From a virus: a DNA stretch of 28,544 nt. The notes under the pieces were generated by a model. The model searched no databases. It was not told the DNA's origin and saw only the letters and a program-made list of their open reading frames with translations. Positions 5,068 to 24,048 of the stretch are shown here, in pieces. Each line of letters begins with the position of its first letter. The stretch's first letter is position 1. The DNA lies in the IMG/VR virus record IMGVR_UViG_3300025736_000136, positions 1 to 28,544 of that record, one strand, 5' to 3'. Made by a program: the position numbers and the translations under genes.

Positions 5068-5802
5068 TCAATCCTCCTTTTTTATTTTGATTACCGTTTC
5101 CAGCATTCCCCGTCTTTTCTTGCCACCCTGGAAGGGAGCGCCTATAAACTCAAAGCTCTTTATCTCGTCGTCACTGAATACCTTGTTGAATATAGCTCTC
5201 CACCATTCTTTCGTATAGCAGCTTACGTGAGTGGGGTCTTGAGGCTCCATATAGAAGCGTTTAGCTACGGAGCCATAATCCTTGTCAAAGACAGTGATGT
5301 TATGATTTATCCAATGCTTGCCAATTCTCTTACTTTCTTTTAAACACTTGATTATCTCTTCCGGCGTCAGGTGCTCCATAAAATCCCAGGAATAAACCAG
5401 GTCAAAAGTGTCATCACCGAAGAAACGCTTCAAGTCTGTAGCGTTAGCTCTAAAGAGGTAGTGAAGCATCTCCGGATGACAGTTGGCAATGGCATACATA
5501 GAGATGTCAACGCCCACAGCATCTATACCCTGCATCCTGAAAGCCTGAGGCAGAAAGCCTTTAGCACATCCCAACTCCAAGAATGTATAGACTGGGGCGA
5601 ACCTTTTAGCTAAACCTCTGGCAGTATCCAAATATCTGTCTTTCCACATCATTAGCCCATACCCCTTTCTGTTATCAAATTTTTCAGGGAAGGTGTATCC
5701 AAGCGGCTCAGCTAATCCGTCGAAGTAGTTTTTATCCAACCACCTTTTCAGATTCTTCGGCCTCTTAGCATTTTCTTCACTTCCCGCTACAAATGCTGGC
5801 AT
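5068..5802 (-). CDS. Class I SAM-dependent methyltransferase
   Basis: 244 residues with a Rossmann-type SAM site: FLELGCAKG at 74-82 (motif I), GVDIS at 97-101 (motif II acid), then FDLVYSWDFMEHL, the usual post-II/IV strand of the Methyltransf_11/23 group. The C-terminal part (DPTHVSCYTKEWW) resembles small-molecule or glycan methyltransferases more than DNA enzymes. Being near an RmlA/RmlB pair, it might methylate a deoxysugar, but a capsid-protein or lipid substrate is equally open. Its start follows the previous stop directly (TAAATG), with only a weak ribosome binding site, so coupling is likely. Confidence 0.8.
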   Translation of the reverse strand: MPAFVAGSEENAKRPKNLKRWLDKNYFDGLAEPLGYTFPEKFDNRKGYGLMMWKDRYLDTARGLAKRFAPVYTFLELGCAKGFLPQAFRMQGIDAVGVDISMYAIANCHPEMLHYLFRANATDLKRFFGDDTFDLVYSWDFMEHLTPEEIIKCLKESKRIGKHWINHNITVFDKDYGSVAKRFYMEPQDPTHVSCYTKEWWRAIFNKVFSDDEIKSFEFIGAPFQGGKKRRGMLETVIKIKKED

Positions 5803-6342
5803 TTAACTATCCGTAGAAACAAACTTCTTAGTTCTATCTCTGAGTATTTGCCAAGATCCTTCTATCACACTGAAGAACTTTCTGATTTTATCTTCCTCGT
5901 CATCACTTCCCACGTGGTAAATCTCAGCCAATTCCGGGTCAGCCACTACTAGCTCTGTTCCAGCGTCAGGTGCTCCATCGCTATCAATACCAGAATAAAC
6001 CTGGAACCCCATCTCATCCCCCACTTCAGCCGAGAGAATAGTACGCTTTACCAGTTCTGGAAGCTCTCGCTCTTTTGCATAGGTGGTACAATACACCTGA
6101 ATGGTGAAGTGATAGGTCATCCATCTACTCTCATAGCCGGTATAATCCGGTTGCACATCCACTTCGTCATCGTCTCGGTATGGATTCAGAAGTACAAAAG
6201 GCAGAGTCAAAAGGCTCAGATTCAACGTCGGATGCACTATATAGAATCTGTCAGCGAAATCGCTGTCCAGAGCCGTAGCGTTCCTGAGAAAATAAACCAA
6301 GCTATCATAGAAGGCCTGCCCTAAATTAGCTACTGTGGCCAT
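5803..6342 (-). CDS. Putative tail-completion (tail terminator-like) protein
   Basis: 179 residues. An N-terminal helix (QAFYDSLVYFL) is followed by beta strands (RFYIVHPTLNLSLLTLPFVLLNP, split here; then YHFTIQVYCTT) and a charged helix (KERELPELVKRTIL). This order and the position after the connector and gp10-like genes fit a tail terminator or neck protein. No diagnostic motif was found, so the call rests mainly on gene order. The start overlaps the end of the RmlA gene by 17 bases. It is separated from the other joining genes by the sugar cassette. Confidence 0.4.
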   Translation of the reverse strand: MATVANLGQAFYDSLVYFLRNATALDSDFADRFYIVHPTLNLSLLTLPFVLLNPYRDDDEVDVQPDYTGYESRWMTYHFTIQVYCTTYAKERELPELVKRTILSAEVGDEMGFQVYSGIDSDGAPDAGTELVVADPELAEIYHVGSDDEEDKIRKFFSVIEGSWQILRDRTKKFVSTDS

Positions 6343-7063
6343 GATTCCTCACCCCCATTTCCAAACAGAATATAGAGCTCCTAAGCAGAGATTCATAAGT
6401 CCCCATATCACTCCAGAAGCATTCCAGTATCCTATAATATAAATCACCCTGACTGATGTAAGACTCATTAGTATCAGTTATTTCCAGCTCACCCCTGTCA
6501 GAAGGTATCTGCCTTTTAATCACGTCAAACACCATCGGATCGTAGAAGTACAGGCCGGTAACAGCTAAGTGGCTCTTAGGCTTCTGGGGCTTCTCCTCAA
6601 TGCTAACAATGTATTTGTCCAGCACCTCAGCTACTCCAAATCTTTTCGGGTCAGCTACTTCTTTCAAGAACACCTTAGCCCCTTGAGTCAACTGGTCAAA
6701 CTCTTCCACATCTCTTTTAAAGTTATCCTCAAAAAGATTATCCCCTAAAATGACGGCCAGATTTTCTCCATTGGTGAAGCCTTCAGCTAAAAGGAGAGCC
6801 GAGGCAATGCCTGAAGCGAAATCCTGAACTTTGTAAGTGAAATTAGCTTTGAATCTTTCGCCGCTTCCCAGCACCTCCATCATATCACCCATATGCTCTT
6901 TGCCGGTTACGATCATTATATCAGTTATGCCGGCGTTGATGAGCGTCTGGATAGGGTAATACATCATCGGGAGCATTCCTACAGCTAAAAGATGTTTATT
7001 TGTTACCTTAGTTAATTCGCCTAATCTGGTTCCATGTCCTCCAGCCAACACAATGCCTTTCAT
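6326..7063 (-). CDS. rmlA: Glucose-1-phosphate thymidylyltransferase, short form
   Basis: 245 residues. It makes dTDP-glucose from dTTP and glucose-1-phosphate. Visible are GGHGTRL (8-14), the catalytic-type NKHLL lysine near 23, VILGDNLF and SIEEKP, all standard for this sugar nucleotidyltransferase family. The length matches the short family form without the C-terminal extension. The start is placed at the ATG in the ATGA overlap with the dehydratase gene (GGAGG seven bases upstream) and not at the longer in-frame start at 7102. With RmlB upstream it forms the first two steps of dTDP-deoxysugar synthesis; no RmlC or RmlD is present, so host enzymes would be needed for dTDP-rhamnose. Confidence 0.92.
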   Translation of the reverse strand: MKGIVLAGGHGTRLGELTKVTNKHLLAVGMLPMMYYPIQTLINAGITDIMIVTGKEHMGDMMEVLGSGERFKANFTYKVQDFASGIASALLLAEGFTNGENLAVILGDNLFEDNFKRDVEEFDQLTQGAKVFLKEVADPKRFGVAEVLDKYIVSIEEKPQKPKSHLAVTGLYFYDPMVFDVIKRQIPSDRGELEITDTNESYISQGDLYYRILECFWSDMGTYESLLRSSIFCLEMGVRNHGHSS

Positions 7064-8025
7064 ATCAATCGCCTCCACCATTTTTCGTTTTCTATGTACC
7101 ACCGGACAGTCTTCTTCAGTCCTTCTTTTAAGAGCAACATTTTTCTGTTTTCCAAACTGGCCAGCTTCTCACAATTTATGCAATATCTTCTGTCATGACC
7201 TGGGCGATCCTTCACGTATTCAATTTCACCCTGGCCCATTATTCTTATTATTTCCTGGATGATAGTTAAATTGTTGACCAGCTTTTCCGTTCCTATGTTG
7301 TATATCTGGCCGAGCATTCCTTTGTGTATCAGCAAGTCTAATGCCCTGCAATTGTCTTCGACGAAAATCCAATCCCTCTCTTGTTTCCCATCTCCATAAA
7401 TAGGAACCTTTTTGCCTTGAAGGATATTAGTAATAGCCAGGGGTATGAGCTTTTCCGGGTATTGGTAGGGGCCATAATTATTGCTGGAGCGACTGATGAC
7501 ATATGGTATGCCGTGCGTCCTGCCGTAAGCCTGGGTGAGCAGGTCTGCGGCGGCTTTAGTGGCTGAATAAGGTGAAGAAGGAATGAGCAAATCGAATTCC
7601 CTGGAGGAGCCACGAGTGACATCACCATACACCTCATCGGTTCCAATTTGCAAAATCTTGACCAATTTCCCTTCCGATTTCCGAGCCAAGACCCAATCCA
7701 AAATTTCTTGAACTCCTACATAATTAGAACGGACAAAAACGCTTGATTCATTAATACTTCTATCAACATGAGAATGGGCAGCAAAGTTAATAACCCAGTC
7801 GGGATACCAAGGCAAAAACAACTCATAAATAAAATTGATGTCCTTTTGAATAAACATATACCTGGGATCGTCTTCTATATCTTTGAGATTATTGAGGTTT
7901 CCAGCATAGGTGAGCTTGTCAACATTAATTATCTGATAGGTGGGATATTTCTTGAGCATATAATGAATAAAATTAGAGCCGATAAAACCTGCTCCTCCGG
8001 TGACTAAAAGCCTTAATCCATTCAA
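7060..8025 (-). CDS. rmlB: dTDP-glucose 4,6-dehydratase
   Basis: 321 residues of the extended short-chain dehydrogenase type. The NAD-binding TGGAGFIGS lies at 9-17, the acid/base motif TDEVYGD at 129-135 and the YSATK tyrosine/lysine pair at 153-157; SRSSNNYGPYQYPEK and GDGKQERDW are also diagnostic. It converts dTDP-glucose to dTDP-4-keto-6-deoxyglucose. The start is TTG with GGAGGAG nearby. It is followed by rmlA in an ATGA overlap. The pair is cargo inside the head-tail joining genes and may feed surface glycan change in the lysogen or infected cell, or glycosylation of virion proteins. Confidence 0.95.
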   Translation of the reverse strand: MNGLRLLVTGGAGFIGSNFIHYMLKKYPTYQIINVDKLTYAGNLNNLKDIEDDPRYMFIQKDINFIYELFLPWYPDWVINFAAHSHVDRSINESSVFVRSNYVGVQEILDWVLARKSEGKLVKILQIGTDEVYGDVTRGSSREFDLLIPSSPYSATKAAADLLTQAYGRTHGIPYVISRSSNNYGPYQYPEKLIPLAITNILQGKKVPIYGDGKQERDWIFVEDNCRALDLLIHKGMLGQIYNIGTEKLVNNLTIIQEIIRIMGQGEIEYVKDRPGHDRRYCINCEKLASLENRKMLLLKEGLKKTVRWYIENEKWWRRLI

Positions 8026-8043
8026 CTTCTCCTCCTTTTTCTT

Positions 8044-8094
8044 GAGGCTGGAGGGATTATTGCATACCCGAAACTGTTATTCAGGCACAGCCTC
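8044..8094. repeat. Inverted repeat between the XhlA-like and rmlB genes
   Basis: GAGGCTG (8044-8050) and CAGCCTC (8088-8094) are perfect 7-base inverted arms enclosing a second small stem (CCCGAA against TTCAGG with a G-T pair). No T-run follows on the minus strand. The structure lies just upstream of rmlB, at one edge of the sugar cassette. It could be a weak terminator, a leader structure or a recombination scar. Confidence 0.45.
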
Positions 8095-8106
8095 TTCTTA
8101 TCAAAA

Positions 8107-8352
8107 TCATTTCTTATTATTCAGGAAAAGATAAGCAACAACCACAAGCGCCGAGATAAGTCCTGCCAGCCCACCCCAAACTCCAGCTTTTACTTTGAGC
8201 ATACCAACATCAACCATTACTTTAGTCATCTTTTCATTAAGTGTTTCGTAACAGGCACTCATACGTTTTAGCTCATTCAAAACATATTTCCTCCACTCCT
8301 CCCAGCCATTTTCATCCAATTCCAGCACCTCCCTTGTTCCATTGGTCTCCAA
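8107..8352 (-). CDS. XhlA-like small membrane protein
   Basis: 81 residues: an acidic, coiled-coil-prone N-terminal half (WRKYVLNELKRM) and one C-terminal membrane segment (AGVWGGLAGLISALVVVAYL, split at the end) followed by Asn-Lys-Lys. This is the layout of XhlA/haemolysin-type phage proteins, which act with a holin in lysis or anchor to the membrane, although it lies here among head-tail genes. The ATG at 8352 gives a 41-base overlap with the gp10-like gene. A TTG at 8319 behind GGGAGG would shorten the overlap and may be the real start. Confidence 0.55.
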   Translation of the reverse strand: METNGTREVLELDENGWEEWRKYVLNELKRMSACYETLNEKMTKVMVDVGMLKVKAGVWGGLAGLISALVVVAYLFLNNKK

Positions 8353-8752
8353 GTATTTGTTTCACTATAGTTATAGCGGCTACCTTCATTGGTGCTCCAA
8401 CGCTTTTCACACCTCGATGGATAAATAGTTTTTTTGTCCGGTGCTCAAACTCCTGGGCAGCTGCATAAGGAAGGGATGATCCAACCATCCTTTCCATTTT
8501 CTTCATTCCCGATAGCCTCTTTCCAGTTATCACTTTTACTGGTCTACCTTCATGGCTGAGCCCAGGTGTCCACTTCTCCTGAGCTGAGAGACTCTTCTGG
8601 AGAGTTCCTGTTTGTACGGGCGTTAGCGGCTTTGCGTTTTCCCCGGCTTCCACAGCATATCTTTCCACAACTCTATCCAGAGCTCTAATCACAACCGGAG
8701 CAGCTCTGGCAACCATTGCAGCATTATTCCATCCAAAGAGGTTTCCAGCCAT
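8312..8752 (-). CDS. HK97 gp10-like head-tail joining protein
   Basis: 146 residues from the ATG at 8752. The pattern APVVIRALDRVV, then LTPVQTGTLQKSL and SLPYAAAQEFEHR matches the HK97-gp10 family (the P-x-x-TGxL motif followed by YA-x-x-xE-xG/F). These proteins act at the head-tail interface. The start is taken at the TAATG overlap with the upstream gene; an earlier in-frame start at 8785 is unlikely. It follows the connector and head-closure-like genes, the usual order. Confidence 0.7.
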   Translation of the reverse strand: MAGNLFGWNNAAMVARAAPVVIRALDRVVERYAVEAGENAKPLTPVQTGTLQKSLSAQEKWTPGLSHEGRPVKVITGKRLSGMKKMERMVGSSLPYAAAQEFEHRTKKLFIHRGVKSVGAPMKVAAITIVKQILGDQWNKGGAGIG

Positions 8753-9186
8753 TAGTCGCTCTCCTTTCTGAGAAGGATCAACCATCGAGAGACCACGTCT
8801 GAGCCTAATCCGTCTTTGTGGAGGTAAGCTATTTGATACTCCTCATCCTTGTAAACGGCTTTCTGATACTGAGTGCCGCTGACCGTTGTAGGCTCATCAG
8901 TGCTGAGTTCTGATTTTCTCCAGTCCAGAGTAGCCATAATATCACCTTGTTTGAGGATTCCCGCTGGTATAACCAGGTGTTCGTCGCCTTTCATTAACCG
9001 GATAACAGGTTCGACGTATTCGTTGGCATAGGCGTAGACTTTCTCCAGAGTTATAGCGTTGATAGAAGATAGAGTCCTTTTCACGAAGTAGAATTCTCCA
9101 GGTTGACAACGGCGTCCAGCTAATACTTGAAGCTCGTTGTCTTGAACCCAGTCAACTTCTTGTCTGGTTAGCATATCTGATTGCAT
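8752..9186 (-). CDS. Putative head-closure protein
   Basis: 144 residues, no firm motif. The sequence is beta-rich (GEFYFVKRTLSS, HLVIPAGILKQGDIMATLDW, YQKAVYKDEEYQIAYL) with no membrane segment or signal. It lies exactly between the connector-like and gp10-like genes, where head-closure (stopper) proteins usually occur. The assignment is by position and size only. Confidence 0.45.
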   Translation of the reverse strand: MQSDMLTRQEVDWVQDNELQVLAGRRCQPGEFYFVKRTLSSINAITLEKVYAYANEYVEPVIRLMKGDEHLVIPAGILKQGDIMATLDWRKSELSTDEPTTVSGTQYQKAVYKDEEYQIAYLHKDGLGSDVVSRWLILLRKESD

Positions 9187-9195
9187 TTTATCGCC

Positions 9196-9750
9196 TTAGT
9201 CCTGAAGGATTCCTACAGTTCCATTTTCATCATAAACTTCCGCACGTAAAACACCTATATCAGCATCTCCGCTTTGCTCCTCAGTGGCCTTCTCTTCAAA
9301 ATCCTTTGCCATTCTTCGGAAGTTCTCAGATTCTTTGGTTCTGTCAACTCGTTCATCGCCCGAATAATAATTGAAAAACTTAGCCGCATTAGTGGCTAAA
9401 GCTCTGCAGCAGTGAGCGGCTGAGAGGTTTATGTTGTTCCCGTAGTCGCTGAGGATACTATTCAGTTCATCATCTGAAAAAGCATTGTATTCGTATTTCT
9501 GAGCCAGAAGAATCAGCTTATCTGAAGGAGCCGTCACCATCGTCACCAAACCAGTGTCCAAATCCAGAGCGTAGTGAGTGGTTCTGGTCTGAGCGGCGTT
9601 ATCCAGAGTTATAACCTCTGTATCGGTTCTGATGGGGAAGAGCTTCAGCTTGAAATACTTCTTTGTGCCGTCCCCTGCGCCAAATTGATCAGCCACGCAG
9701 GCTTTATCCGGATCCCCTATAAGCAATCTCAGCTTTTGTAAATTTGTCAT
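9196..9750 (-). CDS. Putative head-tail connector (gp6-like adaptor)
   Basis: 184 residues. The N-terminal part (MTNLQKLRLLIGD) and the helical repeat around 105-150 (DDELNSILSDYG, LSAAHCCRALATNAAKFF, then RMAKDFEE) resemble phage adaptor proteins of the gp6/gp15 type, although a beta-rich segment (residues 25-85) lies between the two. Such proteins form the ring under the portal. The ribosome binding site before the ATG is poor, suggesting translation coupled to the upstream gene. Confidence 0.55.
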   Translation of the reverse strand: MTNLQKLRLLIGDPDKACVADQFGAGDGTKKYFKLKLFPIRTDTEVITLDNAAQTRTTHYALDLDTGLVTMVTAPSDKLILLAQKYEYNAFSDDELNSILSDYGNNINLSAAHCCRALATNAAKFFNYYSGDERVDRTKESENFRRMAKDFEEKATEEQSGDADIGVLRAEVYDENGTVGILQD

Positions 9751-9751
9751 T

Positions 9752-10123
9752 TCACTTAGTGACCAGTGGTATAGCCAACCCGACTTTCACTTGTTTATCA
9801 TAAGTGTAATAGCGTATCTGGAGTCTCAGCGGTTCTAACTGAGCCCCGATCATAATGCCGATATGTTTTTCTTCTGATTTCCACTCAGCACCTAAGAGCA
9901 GCAATCCTATCTTGAGATTAACTTCTGGCTCAACCTTCTTATCCACCACTGAAACGCCGGCTCCTACGAAATCCATTATTCTGATGTCAAAGGTTGGCTC
10001 TCCCAGATCTCCGCCTACAAAGCTGATAGAAGGTTCAAAAGACAAAAGGCATTTCTCTTCCGCCATAGCTCCCGCTGAAAGAATCAGCATTCCCAAAAGT
10101 ACCGCAATCAAAATTCTTTTCAT
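9752..10123 (-). CDS. Exported beta-rich protein of unknown function
   Basis: 123 residues starting with a clear Sec signal peptide (KR, then ILIAVLLGMLILSAGAMA) with likely cleavage after AMA. The mature part alternates polar and apolar residues in strands (FDIRIMDFVGAGVSVV, NLKIGLLLLGAEW, RLQIRYYTY), as in small barrels or outer-surface proteins, but it lacks a terminal aromatic residue. It is the last of six consecutive genes with export signals and directly precedes the connector gene. The family is not recognised. Confidence 0.65.
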   Translation of the reverse strand: MKRILIAVLLGMLILSAGAMAEEKCLLSFEPSISFVGGDLGEPTFDIRIMDFVGAGVSVVDKKVEPEVNLKIGLLLLGAEWKSEEKHIGIMIGAQLEPLRLQIRYYTYDKQVKVGLAIPLVTK

Positions 10124-10136
10124 TTCTTTTCTCCTT

Positions 10137-10826
10137 TTATTTTTCTACTCCTACTATTCTTAACTCCAAAACTATAAATGCTTCCTCAATCTCCAAATTT
10201 ACCTTGTGGAATTTCTGTTCGATGATTTTACCCTCAACGGTTGCTCCAGGTAGAGTCATACTACAAGGGATAGTTTTCAGCCTGATAGTAGCGCAATCAC
10301 TGTGAGTTAAGATATTCTGATTGGGGTATACGATTACGTTCTCTATCTTCCACCAATAGGGCAGTTTGTACTCCTTGAACTCTTCCTTTGGGATTATATA
10401 CCATTCACTCTCTTTTCTTTTTTCCAACCGGAATTCTATCCTTATTAAACCGTTTTGAGGGTTTGTAGGATCTTGCACGTTTTTATCGTCCAGGGGGACA
10501 AATTTGAATCCAAGTCCTTCCTTCAGAGATTCGGTTACAAATCTTTCCAGTTTCAATTCCTTCTTAATGACAAAATCCCCCAAAGCACTAACCAGAGTGC
10601 CATCCACGAATACCTTAGCTACACATCTTTTGTTGTTCTCGTTTTGCAATAAGATTTCATACTCTTCACCAAATGGCATAGTGACCCGTCCGTCTATCTC
10701 CCTCAGAGGTTTATCGTTGTGAATGATATTCAGGGTGAAGCCGCTATCGCTGACCGCATAAACAGGAGCAACAAAAGCTATTAATGCAATAATTCCTACT
10801 CCGATAAGCCATCCTAATATTTTCAT
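10137..10826 (-). CDS. Exported beta-sandwich-like protein of unknown function
   Basis: 229 residues with an N-terminal hydrophobic signal (LIGVGIIALIAFVAPVYA), probable cleavage after VYA. The mature part has DGRVTMPFGEEYEILLQN, then KVFVDGTLVS and PQNGLIRIEF, a strand pattern with a central VDG turn that I associate with a beta-sandwich fold found in some bacterial and phage proteins. No enzyme motif is visible. The start overlaps the previous stop in TAATG with GAGGTAAG upstream. It is the fifth gene of the exported-protein run. Confidence 0.62.
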   Translation of the reverse strand: MKILGWLIGVGIIALIAFVAPVYAVSDSGFTLNIIHNDKPLREIDGRVTMPFGEEYEILLQNENNKRCVAKVFVDGTLVSALGDFVIKKELKLERFVTESLKEGLGFKFVPLDDKNVQDPTNPQNGLIRIEFRLEKRKESEWYIIPKEEFKEYKLPYWWKIENVIVYPNQNILTHSDCATIRLKTIPCSMTLPGATVEGKIIEQKFHKVNLEIEEAFIVLELRIVGVEK

Positions 10827-11353
10827 TACCTTACCTCAACCCCTACCGTTATTCTTCCTTCCTTATCAGGTCTATATCCCAAAGTTACTGAGCCCATCCT
10901 GAGCCCAAGCATAATCACTGGACGAGGATCATCAATAAAATATTGCCAGCCTATCCCACCCACTAAATCAAATCCTTTCACTGGGAAGTTCTCCGCTCTC
11001 CGCTTTATCATCACATCCTTGTAGCTATCCGCTGCCGCCAGGCACAGAGCCCAGGGGCCGCCTTTCCCTCCAGGGAAATTCTGGAACCATATCCCCACTG
11101 AAATAAATGAGAATCCGTGCCCCTTCTCCCTTAAGATGGGGAACCGCATCCCGTTATCCACTATGGTAGGATAAACTCCGATTTCAAACTCCAGTGACTC
11201 CATTACATCCGTGGGAGGCGTAATCTCCCTCAGTCCCCTCAAGTTTTCCTCTGCGTTCACAGGGATTGCACAGAGGATAAATCCCAATAATGCTGGGATA
11301 AGTATTCCCCAGTAAATCTGCTTTAGTAACCCGCTTTCTTCCTTTCTATTCAA
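10826..11353 (-). CDS. Exported or membrane-anchored beta-rich protein
   Basis: 175 residues from a TTG at 11353, chosen because AAGGAGG lies five bases upstream; a TTG at 11374 is the longer alternative. A short basic N-terminus precedes a hydrophobic segment (IYWGILIPALLGFILCAIP, ending VNA), so it is a signal peptide or an anchor. The mature region is glycine- and beta-rich (GFSFISVGIWFQNFPGGKGG; PVIMLGLRMGSVTLGYRP), reminiscent of small envelope barrels. No known family was recognised. Confidence 0.6.
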   Translation of the reverse strand: MNRKEESGLLKQIYWGILIPALLGFILCAIPVNAEENLRGLREITPPTDVMESLEFEIGVYPTIVDNGMRFPILREKGHGFSFISVGIWFQNFPGGKGGPWALCLAAADSYKDVMIKRRAENFPVKGFDLVGGIGWQYFIDDPRPVIMLGLRMGSVTLGYRPDKEGRITVGVEVR

Positions 11354-11363
11354 CTTATCCTCC

Positions 11364-11804
11364 TTATCTCTCAATCGGTATTGGCTCTATGTTTATCTCA
11401 CTAACCTTCGGCTGCCCATGAATATATTTAATAATTCTATGCTTCACCAGTTTACTATCCTTATCAAACCATTCCTGTAATACTTCCTTAATAACGCCAT
11501 TCTTGTCGTATTCAGTAGCTTCTATCCTCTTGCTAACCATTTCCCCCGTATCCACAAACCTCGTCTCATATACCTGCCTCTCTCGGCCATTCTTCCCCTT
11601 TTCCACCGTGGAGGTCTCCTGAGTTTCCCTCTCTGGCCTGATTTCCTTGAGTTTGCCCAGCAAGCGGATAGCTGCGGCCAGGGGAGCTTCATCCTGCTTG
11701 AGGGTGAAGTTTTCCGTGACAAAGTTCTCCACGTCCTTCACCTCAGCCGCAAATGCGGGGAGGGTGAGGCCGAGAACCAGTAATATGCAAAGTATATATT
11801 TCAT
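11364..11804 (-). CDS. Exported protein of unknown function
   Basis: 146 residues with a typical Sec signal peptide (KYILCILLVLGLTLPAFAA), cleavage probably after AFA. The mature part is charged and mixed helix/strand (AAIRLLGKLKEIRPERETQE; VKHRIIKYIHGQP). AAGGAGG lies directly before the ATG. It is the third gene of the run of exported proteins. Nothing identifies a function; a periplasmic partner of its neighbours is possible but unsupported. Confidence 0.62.
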   Translation of the reverse strand: MKYILCILLVLGLTLPAFAAEVKDVENFVTENFTLKQDEAPLAAAIRLLGKLKEIRPERETQETSTVEKGKNGRERQVYETRFVDTGEMVSKRIEATEYDKNGVIKEVLQEWFDKDSKLVKHRIIKYIHGQPKVSEINIEPIPIER

Positions 11805-11815
11805 AGTTTCCTCCT

Positions 11816-12496
11816 TTATGGGGTATTCCTAACTAAACGGACATAATAAAGAGTTGTATCCTTATCTCTGCCATATATAAGATAAACACCAGCAGCAGGA
11901 GTAAAAGGGATGACCCAGGCTTCAGTAGTTCCTGCAAAATTGGTAGTTGAAGACCAATAACCAGCCGACACACACTGGAAGTACGTGGTATCGATAAAAG
12001 GCGCTCCTATACCGATGTCACAGACTACCAGACTAAACAACTCAAACACATTCGGCACTCTCCAGTCATCGTGCCCTGCCAGGGAAGCGGCGTTAGCGGC
12101 GGCGCAGAAGGCAAAGATATTATTCGTGTCAGCCGCTTTATACCAGTAGAGCTTGCCATCGTTGCCTGGGCCGAGGTCGGAGTCCGGGGTGTATTTCATC
12201 CACATTAGGCCCGAATTATTGTCCGTAACACAATCGTTCTCCATATTTATCGTTTTGCCGCTCACCGCAATAGCAGTAGTCCCGGAATATTGCCCAGTGG
12301 TGAGAGCTGTTAGGCTCCGGGCTTTCCCCTTCTGCAAAGAGCCATCATCCGCCTGAGAATCATATTGAGTATCTTGGCCGGTTACTTGCGTCTTGCAAGG
12401 CTTCAACCCAAAGTCCCAGGTGGTTACATCGGCGGCATAGGCCAGGGTTCCCAGGAGTAATATCAGGCCGCATATTAGTGCAATTTTTAGTTTCAT
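11816..12496 (-). CDS. Exported DUF1566 (Lcl C-terminal, lectin-like fold) protein
   Basis: 226 residues from the ATG at 12496 (GGGAG just upstream; an earlier TTG at 12508 is less likely). A signal peptide (LKIALICGLILLLGTLAYA) is followed by the DUF1566 signature: DNNSGLMWMKY, a helix with FCAAANAASLAGHDDWRVPN, then AGYWSSTTNF, AWVIPF and YYVRLVRN at the C-terminus. The family has a C-type-lectin/FGE-related fold and often serves in surface binding. Some relatives are targets of diversity-generating retroelements, but no reverse transcriptase or template repeat is visible here. It lies between a beta-helix protein and other exported proteins. Confidence 0.85.
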   Translation of the reverse strand: MKLKIALICGLILLLGTLAYAADVTTWDFGLKPCKTQVTGQDTQYDSQADDGSLQKGKARSLTALTTGQYSGTTAIAVSGKTINMENDCVTDNNSGLMWMKYTPDSDLGPGNDGKLYWYKAADTNNIFAFCAAANAASLAGHDDWRVPNVFELFSLVVCDIGIGAPFIDTTYFQCVSAGYWSSTTNFAGTTEAWVIPFTPAAGVYLIYGRDKDTTLYYVRLVRNTP

Positions 12497-12508
12497 TTTA
12501 TCTCCCAA

Positions 12509-14134
12509 CTAATTTGTCGTTGTCCAGGTTCCGTGCGCTCCCGGGATTATCCAGGTGACTATCAAGTGGACATACTCCAGGCTGATGTCAGCATAAGTCT
12601 GGGCGGCGACATCATTGTATATCGTCCCACCTGCACCGCTATCAGCAATTTTATCACTGTCAGCGGCAACAAGATTAAGACGACCAACCGCACACTTGAC
12701 AAATCTAAGTAACGCACCATCTTCAGCAGCTCCCACACTTGGCAAAGTAAAAGTTACCGTTCCACCGGAGTTCATTCGGATTGACTTGCCGAGGTCAGCA
12801 GTGGTGACAGCATATGTGGCAGTTTTGGTAGCGGTAGGAATATAGGCTGCCTGGACAGAGCCAAATACTACATCCTGCCCATCGTCCCAATCGTAGCCGT
12901 CCAGAAGGTCAGCATTGAGGTTGATGACTTTCGTGGTGGAGGTGAGAACCAGGGGAGCAGTGCCGTCGGCCAGGGTGGAAGTGATTTGTCCAGTAAGCTC
13001 AAAATACCCATCATTCTCGCTGTTCACATGGGTATAAGTCCCGGAGTTGGATACTCCGTCAGCCGCTACAATGTCATCCAGTTGGGAGACGACAGTATCA
13101 CCTGCCCCGATGATGAAGGAATTAGCGGTTCCGCCGGCAGAAGTGACGTGAAAGTGGTTGAACATTGACCTAATGCTTGGGCTACCTCCCGCCAGGAAAA
13201 TAGCAGCGGCGGTGGCAGTTGAATTGGCCACGTGGATGTCGCAACCTCTCACTTCATGACAACCAGTGCCGAGTATGTAAAATGTCCCTACGGTGTAGGT
13301 CGCCTCATCGTCCAGAACGTCTATATTGCATCGGTAGATATCCAAAACTCCGGTGCTAGTCCCCCATCCAAGAGCTGATGTTAATCCGGCGCCTGAACCA
13401 TCCACATCAATATTTACCCGCCTCAATTCAATCGCTGCGGCTGTGCCAACCTGGATAGGTACTTTAATGGCGGTAGCATCGCTTACCGAGTTGGTGTATT
13501 TTATAGTGCCAAGAACCATCGCCACGTTTCCGGTGGTATTTAGGCAGGATGGCTGGTCAGAGCCGGTCACGGTGCTATTCGTGAGTTCCAGGTGACACCA
13601 GCGTAGCCGTAGGGAACCTGAGCCGGTTATGATGTCTTTAGCGTTGGTAGTGGGCGCAGTCATTTTGAGTTTCATATTTTCAATTCGACAGTTAGTATAC
13701 GCCCCAAAATCGACAATATTAGCATCAGCAGTAGTGACAAGTTGCTTGGCAGTTAAGCCCATACCCCGCACAGTCTGGTTATCAGCGGTGAAATTGATGG
13801 TGTCGTCAGTGTACGTTCCAGGAGCCACCCGAATTAAAACCGGGACGGTATTGGCATCGAGAGCAGCCTGGATGGTGTTATAATCTGCCCCGGCAACGGC
13901 CACAGTGACAATGCTTTGATATGGAGTGGCAATACTGGAGGCAGTGAGAGTACCGATGACCTCTAAATCTTCTACATTTTCCAGATCATACCCGCCAGCG
14001 TCCACATCCTGATACCATTGGTAAATATCCGGGGAGTATTGCGAATAACCGCCTGAATAGCTGGCAAAAGCTACACCTGAGAAGGTTAGGATCAGAACAC
14101 TCATCAATCCTATTATTATTTTCTTGAGGATCAT
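12509..14134 (-). CDS. Exported right-handed beta-helix protein with a tail-fibre-like C-terminal part
   Basis: 541 residues with a Sec signal peptide (IIIGLMSVLILTFSGVAFA). Residues about 75-330 are pectate-lyase-like: ADYNTIQAALDAN and IRVAPGTYTDDTINF open the helix, and short repeated strands (CRIENMKLKM, LRLRWCHLEL, IELRRVNIDV, LDIYRCNIDV, HEVRGCDIHV) follow at regular steps. Around residues 385-425, LADGTAPLVLTSTTKVINL and NADLLDGYDWDDGQ match wording common in phage fibre proteins. The coupling of an export signal to fibre sequence is odd for a virion part. The start has GGAGGTAA upstream and follows the HNH gene by one base. It may bind glycan at the cell surface. Confidence 0.8.
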   Translation of the reverse strand: MILKKIIIGLMSVLILTFSGVAFASYSGGYSQYSPDIYQWYQDVDAGGYDLENVEDLEVIGTLTASSIATPYQSIVTVAVAGADYNTIQAALDANTVPVLIRVAPGTYTDDTINFTADNQTVRGMGLTAKQLVTTADANIVDFGAYTNCRIENMKLKMTAPTTNAKDIITGSGSLRLRWCHLELTNSTVTGSDQPSCLNTTGNVAMVLGTIKYTNSVSDATAIKVPIQVGTAAAIELRRVNIDVDGSGAGLTSALGWGTSTGVLDIYRCNIDVLDDEATYTVGTFYILGTGCHEVRGCDIHVANSTATAAAIFLAGGSPSIRSMFNHFHVTSAGGTANSFIIGAGDTVVSQLDDIVAADGVSNSGTYTHVNSENDGYFELTGQITSTLADGTAPLVLTSTTKVINLNADLLDGYDWDDGQDVVFGSVQAAYIPTATKTATYAVTTADLGKSIRMNSGGTVTFTLPSVGAAEDGALLRFVKCAVGRLNLVAADSDKIADSGAGGTIYNDVAAQTYADISLEYVHLIVTWIIPGAHGTWTTTN

Positions 14135-14135
14135 A

Positions 14136-15332
14136 TTAGCTTACCTCCACCTTTTTCATTTTGCTTGAACGAAAATGTAATTGTAGTGGCCGCTCCTTCG
14201 CCATCTTCTTTACTTTCCGCTTAAAATGCCGAGTCCAGTGATCACGGTTGACATTCACAACTGTATTACATCCTCTGCAAAGAGAAATCAGATTCTCTGG
14301 CATACAATTCTTCTTATTATAATCAATATGGTGGATATCCAATTTACGAGTCGCCTCTATTTCAGGACAACCACACTTTTGGCATTTATAGCCATCTCTG
14401 GTTCTGATAAGTTCTTTTAATGACTCGTTAAATTCAGAGGGGTAATACCTGGAGGGAATATCGCCCGTCCAATTCGGATTGCGCTCACCAGAATGCCAAG
14501 CAACCGAGCATTCAGTGCTACAAAAATGATGCTTGTTTTTCTCTATCTCGCACCTTCTTTTGACTACCAACTTTTCGCAGTAATCACACTTAACTTGAAT
14601 TGGGCCACCTTTCCAATTAGGATGATTCTCACCCATCATAGACTTTCTATTCTCTTCCTTAGCCCACCATTCCTTCTTTCCTTGTGCTCGCTTTGCAACT
14701 ATTGCATTAGTAGCAGCAGTTTTACCTTCATTCCAATTAACATCCCCCTTCTTAAATTCAGTCGCTGGTGATGTATGTCTCCCTTTCGTAGTAATCCTCA
14801 TCTTCTCTATGCTTTTTCTAAGTCTTTCATCAGTCTCAACCGTTAAATCCTTATTCCAACAAGTATAATGCCTACCCTTCTTAGTAAGTATCATCTTTTC
14901 TGTAGCCTTCCTAACCCTTTCATCAGTTTCAGCCGTTAACCCTTTAATCCAAGAAGTATACTCCCTGCTTCTCTTAGTAAGCGTCATTTTCTCTACCAAC
15001 TTTCTAACTCTCTCATCGGTTTCAACTGTCAAATCTTTACACCAAGAAGTGTAATGCCTGCTTCTTTTAGTAAGTGTCATCTTCTCTACACCTTTTCTAA
15101 GTCTTTCATCGGTTTCAACCGTTAAATCTTTACACCAAATATCATGGCCTTTCTTAAATCTCATATCTCTTGTTGGGATATCACATTGATACATAATGCG
15201 CCTTACTACCTCTAAGCCCATCCCAATTTCTTTCGCCACTTTAGATAATATAAGCTCATCTTTCCAATACAACTTTTCAATACGTTCTCCTATATCAGCA
15301 CCATATCGGTGAGCAAGAAGCTCTGTAAGCAT
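14136..15332 (-). CDS. Free-standing HNH endonuclease with four tandem repeats
   Basis: 398 residues. An N-terminal helix-turn-helix-like part (ILSKVAKEIGMGLEVVRRIM) is followed by FKKGHDIW, four 31-residue repeats (66-189), a second FKKGDVNW, zinc-binding cysteines 249, 252, 271 and 275, GENHPNWKGG and GERNPNWTGD, and the HNH nuclease (YKCQKCGC, LDIHHIDYN with His334/335, NLISLCRGCN). The composition is that of a phage homing endonuclease with NUMOD-like DNA-binding modules. It stands between a capsid-type gene and the exported-protein run, a common type of site for such mobile genes. The local sequence is more AT-rich than its neighbours. Confidence 0.9.
   Translation of the reverse strand: MLTELLAHRYGADIGERIEKLYWKDELILSKVAKEIGMGLEVVRRIMYQCDIPTRDMRFKKGHDIWCKDLTVETDERLRKGVEKMTLTKRSRHYTSWCKDLTVETDERVRKLVEKMTLTKRSREYTSWIKGLTAETDERVRKATEKMILTKKGRHYTCWNKDLTVETDERLRKSIEKMRITTKGRHTSPATEFKKGDVNWNEGKTAATNAIVAKRAQGKKEWWAKEENRKSMMGENHPNWKGGPIQVKCDYCEKLVVKRRCEIEKNKHHFCSTECSVAWHSGERNPNWTGDIPSRYYPSEFNESLKELIRTRDGYKCQKCGCPEIEATRKLDIHHIDYNKKNCMPENLISLCRGCNTVVNVNRDHWTRHFKRKVKKMAKERPLQLHFRSSKMKKVEVS
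14766..15137 (-). repeat. Four tandem 93-bp repeats inside the HNH gene
   Basis: The repeats encode units that start with Trp, continue KDLTVETDER and LRK, then EKMTLTK and RHYTS. The units lie at residues 66-96, 97-127, 128-158 and 159-189; the first three are closest and the fourth diverges at its end. At DNA level the matching stretches are almost identical, so the array expanded recently. The flanking FKKGxxxW motifs suggest that the unit is a DNA-contacting module. Confidence 0.9.
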
Positions 15333-15647
15333 TTACCATCCCTCCAGCACGCGAATATCCAGATTGTTCGAAGCAGCGATAGCGTAAATCAAAACTCCTA
15401 CGTCTAAGCTGAAAGAACGATTCCCTCCATTAGGCAACGGAATCCCCCTAGTAATTGTAACTCCAGCCCCACCCAGAAAAATCCCGCTCCCACTATTATT
15501 AAAAATTTCTATATGACGTCTGTGAACGTGTGCTGTGGCAGGAAGTGGAACAGCCGTAGTTCCCACCGTTACCGGCGATTCAAGTACGCCTCCTGTAAGC
15601 CAATCAGAATTCGGGCTCCTGTTCTTACTCAAAGAAATGGGAATCAC
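15333..15647 (-). CDS. Small capsid-decoration-like beta-sandwich protein
   Basis: 104 residues. The pattern VTVGTTAVPLPA, RRHIEIFNNSGSGIFLGG, GVTITRGIPL and then LDVGVLIYAIAASNNLDIRV is one I associate with small phage structural proteins encoded near the capsid genes, where it forms a compact beta domain. No enzyme motif. Its position two genes after the major capsid gene fits a decoration or fibre-base role. The stop touches the HNH start (TAAATG). Confidence 0.6.
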   Translation of the reverse strand: MIPISLSKNRSPNSDWLTGGVLESPVTVGTTAVPLPATAHVHRRHIEIFNNSGSGIFLGGAGVTITRGIPLPNGGNRSFSLDVGVLIYAIAASNNLDIRVLEGW

Positions 15648-15979: not shown

Positions 15980-16966
15980 TTAATAAGCGGTTCTGCAGAG
16001 CTTATCCGGCTCAACTATGTCAGCCGCAAAGCGGGCTTTAGCCCTGAAATTCTCTGTATCTCTCAACAGATCTTCCCAACTCTTGATTTGCAATACCAGT
16101 CGTCTCAGAAAAATCGAACCTCCGAAAGTCCCAGCCAGCCCGATGTAGTAGTAAGTGGTATCGATGTACGGAGTCACGATCACATTCAAGAGGTTCTGAA
16201 AGACATTAGAACCTCCAGGAGCGTTGGCAGCTGCTATATTAGCTGCTACGGTTAGAGTGGTATTGATCAGTTCCTTAGCTTGGAAGCTATGAGTCGGATC
16301 CACCACCAGATAATCTGGAGTGATGGGATCTAACTCTGCTCTTCCACCAGTAGTTACAGTCCTATTCAACAGTGCAGCCAATCCAGACTCCAGAGCTGCA
16401 GCGCTGAGAGTGGTTCCAGCGTTGGCAGTCATATTAGCGCCTCTCGCCGTCATAGCGGCAAAAGCCACGTAATCCTCTTTTTGTTTGAAGCGGTTCCCAA
16501 CCATCCGGAGACACCACCCCATCATGTCAACCTCTATGTCATCCAGCATATCCTCATCAAAGCCGCAGATGCACTCATACTTATCAACTTCCATCTTAGC
16601 TTCTCCAGAGGCTGGCCCGGTATGTCTGACTTCTCGACCGGTTTCGCCACTAGGAGAGGTTTGAGTTCCAGCCTTGTAAACATGGATTCCTTTCAGTCCT
16701 GGGAAGTCAACAGCTTTCCCTTTATTCAGCGTAACCAAATCAAAGATTTGGTTCCAGATAGCCATGTGTTCGGTGTAGCCATCCAGCAATTTGGTGTTGA
16801 AAGCGGTTCTGAACAGTTCCGGCACCTCTGAGGACACACGAGCTTCTTGAAGCTGGCGTCCTAAAACTCTTATCTTAGCCTCATTCCAAGCTGAAGAGCC
16901 TGCTCTCAAGCTAGGTTGCTTGAATTCTTTCACTTCTATTAAATTAACATCTTCTTCTTTAGCCAA
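15980..16966 (-). CDS. Major capsid protein, HK97-fold type
   Basis: 328 residues. An N-terminal arm with LGRQLQEARVSSEVPELF is followed by DGYTEHMAIWNQIFDLV, then an E-loop/P-domain-like stretch with KGIHVYKAGTQTSPSGE, the spine region VDKYECICGFDEDML and a C-terminal A-domain with PDYLVVDPTHSFQ and IDTTYYYIGLAG. No signal or membrane segment. Length, composition and its place after a scaffold and decoration protein support the call; no single residue proves it. The start is TTG, preceded by GGAGGTGA six bases away, inside a leader shared with the decoration gene. Confidence 0.82.
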   Translation of the reverse strand: MAKEEDVNLIEVKEFKQPSLRAGSSAWNEAKIRVLGRQLQEARVSSEVPELFRTAFNTKLLDGYTEHMAIWNQIFDLVTLNKGKAVDFPGLKGIHVYKAGTQTSPSGETGREVRHTGPASGEAKMEVDKYECICGFDEDMLDDIEVDMMGWCLRMVGNRFKQKEDYVAFAAMTARGANMTANAGTTLSAAALESGLAALLNRTVTTGGRAELDPITPDYLVVDPTHSFQAKELINTTLTVAANIAAANAPGGSNVFQNLLNVIVTPYIDTTYYYIGLAGTFGGSIFLRRLVLQIKSWEDLLRDTENFRAKARFAADIVEPDKLCRTAY

Positions 16967-16997: not shown

Positions 16998-17468
16998 TTA
17001 CAGATACGGAGTAGAACTATCATACAGATAAGGACTCCGTTTTCTCACTGGAGTAATGAATACCTCCACTGCTTCCGCTGCGGCGATTCCAGGTGTTCCA
17101 CTTTCAGCCACTCCACAGGAAATCTCCTGAGCGTGACCTCCGCCTAAATCAACCGTAGTAGCATTTCCAGAAACGAACAAATAGCGTCCTGGAGTGATGG
17201 CTTGTGCTGAAGCAGTAGGAAACTCGAATACTCCCGTCTGCCATACCAGCACCTTATCACCAACCACACCAGCTCCTTCAGCTACTCCGGCTATTCCACC
17301 CGTGCCGAACAACAGCATAGGATCGGTAGCTCGGTGGAGCAATCCGCCTCCATCCAGAAACACGAAATCACCAGCGTAAATGGTTTCAGCGGCTTCAAAC
17401 TCGGTCAAAACTCCAGCTCTTAAATAGTTTTCGAGCTGAGAGTTGTATGTCATTATTTGTTTAGCCAA
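16998..17468 (-). CDS. Capsid decoration protein (DUF2190-like)
   Basis: 156 residues, glycine- and alanine-rich beta sequence: AAETIYAGDFVFLDGGGLL, IAGVAEGAGVVGDKVLVW, AITPGRYLFVSGN and ISCGVAESG. This looks like the small beta-barrel proteins that stud HK97-type capsids (DUF2190/head decoration group). It is encoded between the scaffold and the major capsid protein. Its TTG start uses the leader repeated before the capsid gene, so both proteins are probably made at matched, high levels. Confidence 0.72.
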   Translation of the reverse strand: MAKQIMTYNSQLENYLRAGVLTEFEAAETIYAGDFVFLDGGGLLHRATDPMLLFGTGGIAGVAEGAGVVGDKVLVWQTGVFEFPTASAQAITPGRYLFVSGNATTVDLGGGHAQEISCGVAESGTPGIAAAEAVEVFITPVRKRSPYLYDSSTPYL

Positions 17469-18039: not shown

Positions 18040-19944
18040 TTATTTAGTTATACTGGTTACAACGGCTCCAGCTATTCCACCGTCTCGGACTAAATCAAAT
18101 CCTTTGAAATTCATGTCCATTACTCTTTCTCTTTGTTTTCCATTACTGTTCTCCAGCTTTATCTTACCACCAGCTCTAAGAGAAAGGGGTTGGCTTCCAG
18201 CGGGCTTAGACCTCAGTAATTCCTGAGCGTCTTTGCCGAAGCTGGTATCATTCACTTCCGCCTCAAAGTTCACTTTTCCTTCTTTAGTCAAATCTACTGA
18301 GACAACCCTTCCAACTTCTGGACAGGTAGCATCCAGGGGATTAGTAATATTTCCGTCTTTAGGATGACCAAGCATAACCGTTAGTGGTAATCCGCCTTCA
18401 ACGGCTATAGTATGTTGAGCCTTCTCCACAGCTCGTCTGACTACATCAGCTGGATAAAAGCGTCCGTTGCCCGACTCAGTATCAGCATGGAGGACCGTGC
18501 CTCTAAAGCGGAAATTGCTGGCTTCGGCCCACTCCTCAGTAGCTATTTCAGCACTCTCAGTTATAATGGCCTCAGATAGCCGGGGGATTCTGACTATTTT
18601 CTTCACCGAAGAAGCTTTGATCAACTCAATTATGTCTTTTTGCTTATGAACCTTTAAGATGGCCACAGCAGAGGTGGTTCTTTCAAAAGCTATCTTAGCT
18701 GAATCGTTCTGGGTCGTTAAGAGGGCATAGACGGCTTTTAATTGATTAGCTGTAGATTTACTCTCAATTTTTCTAATTACCGCTGAGAGAGCTGTCAATG
18801 CGTTCCTAAATGAAGCAGGTATCTCCCCAAAACTACCGTAGCCGTAATAACCGATAGGCCCTTTCAGTGGAGATAAATTTTCCTCAATCATATTGCTCAC
18901 CCCATTCTTTACTTTCTTAGCTTCTTGGCCTGGGCCTGGGCGGCTCTTCCTTCTCATCTGGCCGCCACACTTCTTACACTTGAGCGTATTGCAATGTTTA
19001 TCAGTCTTTATGGTATAATCGCATTTAATACATTCACATTCATATTGTTGAGCTTCTGGTTCAACTTTCTCCTTATCTTCTTTGGCTTCATCCTTAACCC
19101 ATTCCTGGTCAAAGTAGGAATCAGCTATCCCATATTCCAATGCTTGTTCCGGAGTTAAAAACATATCAGTCTCTCTAAGGACTTTCGATTCAATCTCTCT
19201 CTTATCTTCTAGGTTAGTATGCTTAACATAATGAGCAATCATCCGATTGTGGATAATCTCAAATTCCCTCTGCCTGGCCTTCAGCTCTGCCTGGCTTCCA
19301 CCGATCATACCAGAAAAGCGATGGGATAAAATACTGGCGTTCTGAGAGATTTGTCGTTCATCACCGGCCATAAAGATCATCAGGCCAGCCGACATAATTT
19401 TTCCAAGAGCTATAGTTTGAATAGGACAACGGACATACTCGATCATATCTGTAATGGCGAAACTGGCATAGACGCTTCCACCAAAAGAGCTGATAATAAT
19501 TCTAACCGGTTCCTTCTGGTTTTCTTTATCAAATTGAAGCAGCTTCCGGCAAATATCCTCAGCCGTGTAATCATATACACCGCTGAAAAGGAAAATAAGG
19601 CGTTCTTCCTCAACTTCCTTTGGTTCTTTTTTCTCAGCTTCAACAAACTCCTTAGTGGTATAAGTGTTTATTAGCTTACTTTCGTTAAAACTACAGAACA
19701 TCGTCGCCCCTGTTTCATTAAGGTCTGAGAAAGCTAAAGCCTTATGTGCCTTCAACCAGGTCTTAGCCTTGCTCATCGTCCATCCTTTAGCTTTAGCAAA
19801 GAGATAGGTCACAATAAGCTTACGGTTTACGCAATAGAGAGCCTTTATACCTTCTCGCTTGGAAACCGTCATAGTCCTGATAACATCCCCAGCTTTCCTC
19901 TTTGCAACCGGGATACGCACAAAATGTTCTGTTTCTTCTGGCAT
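18040..19944 (-). CDS. Dual-protease capsid maturation polyprotein: ClpP-like plus T4 gp21-like
   Basis: 634 residues. An N-terminal extension (1-110) leads to a ClpP-like serine protease: SSFGGSVYA (152-160), the catalytic serine in IMSAG (Ser185), the histidine in LSHRF (His208) and a candidate Asp near 260. Cysteines 303, 305, 308, 318, 323 and 326 form a zinc ribbon. Residues 462-634 match prohead proteases of the T4 gp21 type: NGRFYPADVV (493-502), the histidine in MLGHP (His527), EVGRVVSV and the serine in LSLRAGG (Ser588). Two unlike proteases are thus joined. An ATG at 18891 (Met352) behind GGGGTGAG may give the second half alone. It follows the methyltransferase-like gene after a 325-bp gap and precedes the scaffold. 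Confidence 0.85.
   Translation of the reverse strand: MPEETEHFVRIPVAKRKAGDVIRTMTVSKREGIKALYCVNRKLIVTYLFAKAKGWTMSKAKTWLKAHKALAFSDLNETGATMFCSFNESKLINTYTTKEFVEAEKKEPKEVEEERLIFLFSGVYDYTAEDICRKLLQFDKENQKEPVRIIISSFGGSVYASFAITDMIEYVRCPIQTIALGKIMSAGLMIFMAGDERQISQNASILSHRFSGMIGGSQAELKARQREFEIIHNRMIAHYVKHTNLEDKREIESKVLRETDMFLTPEQALEYGIADSYFDQEWVKDEAKEDKEKVEPEAQQYECECIKCDYTIKTDKHCNTLKCKKCGGQMRRKSRPGPGQEAKKVKNGVSNMIEENLSPLKGPIGYYGYGSFGEIPASFRNALTALSAVIRKIESKSTANQLKAVYALLTTQNDSAKIAFERTTSAVAILKVHKQKDIIELIKASSVKKIVRIPRLSEAIITESAEIATEEWAEASNFRFRGTVLHADTESGNGRFYPADVVRRAVEKAQHTIAVEGGLPLTVMLGHPKDGNITNPLDATCPEVGRVVSVDLTKEGKVNFEAEVNDTSFGKDAQELLRSKPAGSQPLSLRAGGKIKLENSNGKQRERVMDMNFKGFDLVRDGGIAGAVVTSITK
18886..18905 (-). 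promoter_or_regulatory. Possible internal translation start in the protease gene
   Basis: On the minus strand GGGGTGAG lies six bases before an in-frame ATG (18891, residue 352). This is where the zinc-ribbon part ends and the second protease half begins, so a separate shorter product is plausible. Confidence 0.4.
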
Positions 19945-23236: not shown

Positions 23237-23638
23237 TTAGTCGCACTCCTCTTGGCTTGTATCAAGTTGCAATGATTCCTCGATTTCTTCCTCGGTTATT
23301 CCCTTATAGGGGTCATCCCCGTACCGATGTTCCCAAGGAATAAGTTCATCCAGAAAGAGCCAGTATCCCTTGTAGTTAATGATAACCTTTATGTCGACAC
23401 CTTTCGGGATATAAATTACCGTGTCTGCGTTCAATTCAAGCATCACCGAATCCATAAAAGACCAGAGAGGCTTTGCCTCATAGATTTCATAGCGGGCACT
23501 ATCTTGCGGAAAAGCGATCTGGTGTTCATTTTCTGGCAATACTACATACTCAGAATCCCATGCAAGTTTGTGCTCCTCACACACCCCCGCCCCTCCCATG
23601 AGAAGAACGATTACCAGGGCCAACAATGTTATCTTCAT
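23237..23638 (-). CDS. Exported protein of unknown function
   Basis: 133 residues from the ATG at 23638, which has AGGAGG directly before it. A signal peptide (MKITLLALVIVLLMGGAGVC) is followed by a hydrophilic, acidic domain (LPENEHQIAFPQDS; VIINYKGYWLFLDELIPWE). A cysteine at the cleavage region hints at a lipoprotein, but the residues before it do not form a good lipobox. It lies outside the six-gene exported run. Confidence 0.62.
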   Translation of the reverse strand: MKITLLALVIVLLMGGAGVCEEHKLAWDSEYVVLPENEHQIAFPQDSARYEIYEAKPLWSFMDSVMLELNADTVIYIPKGVDIKVIINYKGYWLFLDELIPWEHRYGDDPYKGITEEEIEESLQLDTSQEECD

Positions 23639-23652
23639 GGTTCCTCCTTTCT

Positions 23653-24048
23653 TCACGAGATAGTTATGTAAGGTGCTCCCCCAGGAAACATTTGCCAAAG
23701 CTCCCGTTTTTCTGGAAATATCTTTACTTTATTTATAGCCATTCCTAATTGAACGAGCTGGTCCATTCTTTGGTGCAACCCAGTCCATTGTTCATTGTTT
23801 TTAGTATTACACAGATTGAGGAATGACCAACCTCCCCCGTGACCAGATCTAAATTTGGTTGGCAATTCTTCCAACATTAAAACGATCTCTACCTTGTTTT
23901 CCTCCACTCTTTTGGGATGAAACAATGTCTTAAACATAATGCCCTGAACCGTAATTGGTTCAATTTCTGGATTGCCGTCATCGTCGATCTCGTCATCATG
24001 AAACAGACAGCTCAAATATATTTTCTCTACTCTATCACTTTCTATCAT
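23653..24048 (-). CDS. Conserved phage hypothetical protein
   Basis: 131 residues. The pattern VQGIMFKTLFHPKRVEENK, LPTKFRSGHGGGWSFLN, NNEQWTGLHQRMDQLVQLG and WQMFPGGAPY is a recurrent one in phage and prophage proteins, though no function is established to my knowledge. GAGGAG lies before the ATG. It is the first gene after the tRNA-like element. Confidence 0.65.
   Translation of the reverse strand: MIESDRVEKIYLSCLFHDDEIDDDGNPEIEPITVQGIMFKTLFHPKRVEENKVEIVLMLEELPTKFRSGHGGGWSFLNLCNTKNNEQWTGLHQRMDQLVQLGMAINKVKIFPEKRELWQMFPGGAPYITIS

Follow-up and report, generated by a model that had tools for sequence, protein, structure and literature searches.

Bacteriophage T5 encodes Llp, a protein that is exported to the host envelope and whose gene adjoins that of the receptor-binding protein (PMC9586334), and phage lambda encodes Lom, a signal-bearing beta-barrel specified between tail genes (PMC12309495). 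The block of six genes described here is comparable to both: its products are predicted to be exported to the envelope, as are the phage-encoded T5 Llp/Cor exclusion lipoproteins, and, as with Lom, they bear signals and their genes lie among the structural genes of a tailed phage. However, the Llp/Cor proteins are single small lipoproteins, whereas the block specifies six non-lipoproteins without sequence similarity to them, and Lom is an outer-membrane barrel located between tail genes, whereas the block occupies a capsid-neck site. Nothing homologous to exclusion proteins was found in PADLOC, Pfam, PHROGs or NCBIfam, and no block protein matches the Lom/Ail family in Pfam or NCBIfam. Two further families are relevant to individual members: the Lcl_C/DUF1566 domain, which is C-type-lectin-like and which diversity-generating retroelements commonly target (PMC6642488), and the LPFGSEY-type viral beta-sandwich proteins, an unnamed family that includes XacN1 ORF366.

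The block lies in a 28.5-kb virus fragment, the whole of which (28,544 nt) is referred to as the window, with most coding on the minus strand. Its gene order is as follows:

Top of the window: minor head protein and endonuclease
18040-19944: head protease
16998-17468: decoration protein
15980-16966: capsid protein, followed by two small head genes
15333..15647, minus: conserved small head gene, left border of the slot, counterpart of the 101-aa head gene of relatives
14136-15332, minus: HNH endonuclease (phrog_8446, E 1.9e-21), inside the slot, with the small head gene on one side and the exported genes on the other
14134-9752, minus: six consecutive open reading frames with predicted exported products, namely
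12509..14134, minus: fibre-like protein, 541 aa, signal MILKKIIIGLMSVLILTFSGVAFA with the mature protein predicted to begin SYSGG
11816..12496, minus: Lcl_C/DUF1566 protein, 226 aa from ATG 12496 (longest ORF start 12508)
11364..11804, minus: 146-aa protein of no known family
10826..11353, minus: 175-aa protein of no known family, from TTG 11353 after GGAGG (longest ORF 10826-11374)
10137..10826, minus: 229-aa member of the beta-sandwich family, which has gained a signal where the domain starts and has lost the C-terminal zinc ribbon
9752..10123, minus: 123-aa protein with amphipathic beta-strand alternation
9750-8312: neck genes, behind the exported block
9196..9750, minus: conserved neck/connector-type gene, right border of the slot (57-66% identity in the relatives L002, L090, L091 and L093)
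5068-8025, minus: nucleotide-sugar and methylase genes behind the neck genes, comprising a GDP-mannose dehydratase/epimerase-type gene, a nucleotidyltransferase, a conserved 179-aa protein and a methyltransferase

The six genes are consecutive on one strand, as the initial annotation had described, and are separated by 1-13 nt or overlap by one base; a purine-rich ribosome-binding site precedes most of them. Shine-Dalgarno placement shifts two starts, that of the DUF1566 gene to ATG 12496 and that of the gene first read as 182 aa to TTG 11353. Since promoters and terminators were not found in excess over shuffles, it is the spacing that argues for co-transcription; Rfam gave no match. The block had been placed between capsid and connector genes, which holds for the slot as a whole, but its direct upstream neighbour is the HNH endonuclease and not a head gene. 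The HNH gene itself contains three tandem repeats with a spacing of 93 nt (14779-15138), which encode TVETDER-type units. The GC content is 50-51% over 12000-14000, the part that holds the fibre-like and DUF1566 genes, versus 40-46% in the adjoining kilobases.

Export signals were assessed with a home-made, rule-based score that combines positive charge of the n-region, hydrophobicity of the h-region and the -3/-1 rule. On this score the six block proteins reach 4.1 to 5.2; when each N-terminus was shuffled 500 times, no more than one shuffle equalled the observed value. When every score above 0 is counted as signal-bearing for the other window genes, the home-made score separates the block (6/6) from the remainder (1/28; Fisher p = 5e-6), which bears out the earlier claim that each gene begins with a Sec signal or signal-like anchor. 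By inspection, each signal has a likely cleavage site of the A-x-A or V-x-A type and none contains a lipobox. The lone signal-bearing gene outside the block (minus-strand ORF 23237-23698, true start ATG 23638 after AGGAGG) belongs to no known family. Export of the six products by Sec-type signals is thus supported at the level of sequence, among other evidence because the 229-aa protein has gained a signal and lost a zinc ribbon.

This protein belongs to a family that, judged by sequence, is normally cytoplasmic and spread widely among viruses. A scan of IMG/VR with a two-sequence alignment returned 97 relatives, of which 80 were kept (L005-L084); the window protein is 52% identical over 107 aa to one of them, L006, and the alignment places in it the N-terminal beta-sandwich domain and the G-x-T-V-x-G motif common to the LPFGSEY-type proteins. 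The other members examined lack a signal and most carry a terminal zinc ribbon, whereas the window copy is the reverse. No signal peptide was seen among the N-termini listed for the relatives, a few of their starts being extended or uncertain; they start at the domain itself, and the signal of the window protein sits exactly there. A double-zinc-ribbon model matches 29 of 34 aligned family members and does not match the window protein. A reduced zinc-cysteine module would be of little use outside the cytoplasm, so the joint gain and loss argue that the export is real. The isolated jumbo phages XacN1, CM1 and RAS14 have a family member too, its gene being listed as hypothetical or left without annotation, and in XacN1 the gene (ORF366) adjoins that of the tail sheath. 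The fold of the 229-aa protein is predicted with a core pLDDT above 90 and finds matches, at E values down to 1e-11, among proteins from giant viruses, iridoviruses, baculoviruses, nudiviruses and white spot syndrome virus; those to ICP-18 and to proteins of the AcORF17 type are weaker (E 1e-3 and above). No solved structure matches the model convincingly (best PDB E 0.05), and Pfam has no entry for the N-terminal domain.

Searches with capsid and neck proteins yielded four related fragments (L002, L090, L091 and L093) and an additional short one, L003, close to L002. The gene order around the slot is kept among them, and most flanking proteins are 50-79% identical. Between the 101-aa head gene, which is missing from L091, and the neck gene, the content of the slot changes:

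Window: HNH endonuclease and six exported genes
L002: exported 121-aa protein ending FGYRYTW, 188-aa protein and HIT-like protein
L090: exported 345-aa fibre-like protein, exported 111-aa protein and HIT-like protein
L093: the fibre gene of L090, broken by an in-frame TAG (L093 8688-8690), and HIT-like protein
L091: HIT-like protein only, no exported gene

The HIT label was given by eye from an HFHLQ motif, Pfam not reporting HIT, and no such gene is recognisable in the window. Of the five phages compared, all but L091 have signal-bearing genes at the slot, the window being one of these four; on the L090 contig signals are confined to the two exported genes of the slot, one of them its intact copy of the fibre gene, with 0 of 70 genes elsewhere bearing one. 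As the relatives hold different, broken or no exported genes there, the slot is likely, on this sequence comparison, to be a fixed site for changing, dispensable cargo at which exported proteins recur. Comparative mapping, which the initial annotation had proposed, thus revealed variable cargo that is present or absent among relatives. Its suggestion that the six proteins work together is not supported: the exported genes that relatives have at the slot number one or two and are unrelated, and the identical six-gene set was found in none of the four relatives and in no other genome searched. The capsid protein gave no match among phage records and genome contigs. The contig of L002 (G001) encodes further signal-bearing proteins at 6287-9282 and 12753-13274, which are fibre-like, sialidase-like (764 aa, by eye) and beta-rich; at 71793-73923 it has a signal-bearing protein resembling the solute-binding component of sugar ABC transporters, followed by a permease-like gene (both by eye).

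The 541-aa fibre-like protein resembles the exported proteins found in L090 and L093 over its signal and first ~30 mature residues (42-44% identity over ~65 aa), and its remainder is unrelated to theirs. A conserved N-terminus with an exchanged C-terminus is typical of fibres. The beta-helix assigned to it earlier rests on a pectate-lyase-like start pattern in its middle, recognised by eye, and on a low-confidence model (pLDDT 43) with repeated strands, which in the PDB retrieves chiefly beta-helix lyases first and tailspikes further down (E >0.3); pattern and model are suggestive of this fold. Residues 371-413 match cyanophage tail-fibre and structural proteins with up to 65% identity, and the tail-fibre motif LNADLLDGYD lies near residue 400. 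The exported protein is nevertheless probably not an ordinary tail fibre, because L093 encodes a separate, signal-free fibre-like protein of 570 aa behind the tape-measure gene, the usual place of tail fibres.

In the DUF1566 protein the full C-terminal domain is present, the match to Lcl_C (PF07603) covering profile positions 2-117 of 117 with E 3.7e-22 and 79.3 bits against a gathering threshold of 34.9. A weak match to the surface adhesin Lsa25 (E 1.9e-6) is far below the curated cut-off. The protein has no relative in viral contigs or phage records, and only weak bacterial ones in Anaerolineae and Bacteroidetes MAGs. Although such proteins are often targets of diversity-generating retroelements, neither a reverse transcriptase nor a TR/VR repeat pair occurs within the window, which is a fragment. 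The phage collection yielded no relative of the 175/182-aa, 146-aa or 123-aa protein, nor did IMG/VR for the 182-aa form. Beta-type alternation is strong in the 123-aa protein (1 of 1000 shuffles) and was not found in the 146-aa or 175-aa protein, so that the description of the unassigned members as mostly beta-rich applies to some of them only. A similarity of the 123-aa protein to the exported protein of L002 (E 0.014 over 42 aa) was not accepted as homology.

Just behind the neck genes, nucleotide-sugar genes occupy 5803-8025 (6326-8025 in the evidence for a sugar cassette), contrary to the initial view that no host-type gene lies nearby. The same region is greatly expanded in L090 and L093; in L090 it extends over ~16 kb with SIS isomerase, HAD phosphatase, GHMP kinase, nucleotidyltransferases and glycosyltransferases. 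Such gene content suggests synthesis of heptose-type sugars, which may serve host surface glycans, virion glycans or DNA.

The reading that we consider fairly probable is that the block is an accessory, moron-type cargo cassette in a fixed slot of the late operon that acts on the host surface. The separate parts differ in strength: exported, variable and dispensable late cargo is likely, action at the envelope is likely if the proteins are exported, and we infer late co-transcription, a diderm host and the surface location of the products. The phage probably uses the six proteins to alter the host cell surface, since they appear to be built for export, one of them with a signal gained and a zinc tail lost. 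This could proceed in the following manner: The six genes would be read late in infection together with the head and neck genes, and Sec would carry their products out of the cytoplasm; in a diderm host these would be active either in the periplasm or on the cell exterior. Infected cells and their debris may thereby change at the surface such that sister or rival virions bind unproductively, which would be the most likely use. Fibre-like and C-type-lectin-like modules may occupy or mask receptors, alongside the nucleotide-sugar genes of the phage; masking by the block is speculative, and exclusion or masking is a plausible guess by analogy, with good precedents in T5 Llp and lambda Lom. A tentative and on balance doubtful extension is that a dedicated late slot turns virus modules, namely those of fibres and a cytoplasmic beta-sandwich protein found across viruses, into secreted surface proteins that form a modular coat or decoy, with a conserved exported N-terminal dock and exchangeable C-terminal fibres.

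Conversion unrelated to exclusion, in which the infected host would gain the ability to adhere, bind glycans or scavenge and thereby supply the phage or benefit itself, has a small but real chance of being correct. The C-type-lectin-like nature of Lcl_C/DUF1566 domains (PMC6642488), the weak Lsa25 match and the solute-binding-like and permease-like proteins encoded by the L002 contig are in keeping with it; however, neither an integrase nor a repressor was noticed in the window, nothing in the fragment marks the phage as temperate, and the capsid search of 84,980 genomes produced no relative. It is similarly unlikely that a permissive site merely happened to gather six unrelated genes, which brought their signals from different donors and share no role. 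In favour of this, no relationship was detected between any of the six, the GC content rises over 12000-14000 and the set is absent from every other genome searched, but the recurrence of signal-bearing genes at the slot in four of five phages, set against 0 of 70 elsewhere on the L090 contig, speaks against chance. Least probable are virion or virion-bound adhesins that join the particle outside after lysis, or an uncleaved hydrophobic N-terminus: the cyanophage-like tail-fibre motif of the beta-helix protein, the position of its gene in a structural operon and the other signal-bearing fibre-like proteins of L002, perhaps near tail genes if that contig is circularly permuted, are outweighed by the cytoplasmic assembly of tailed virions, by L093, whose fibre-like protein at the tail-fibre place is signal-free and whose signal-bearing one in the slot has a stop codon, and by L091, which lacks the fibre-like gene.

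Envelope-remodelling phage proteins are known one at a time, and a slot with changing exported sets, as favoured here, would be a place to find many more of them in uncultured phages. The 229-aa protein represents a clear case of a viral family changing compartment, by signal gain together with zinc ribbon loss. Its beta-sandwich and zinc ribbon family is unnamed, occurs in many uncultured phages and extends, by fold, to eukaryotic DNA viruses; few of the proteins related to it by fold in iridoviruses, baculoviruses and giant viruses have been characterised, and a secreted version could help to show the ligand of the domain.
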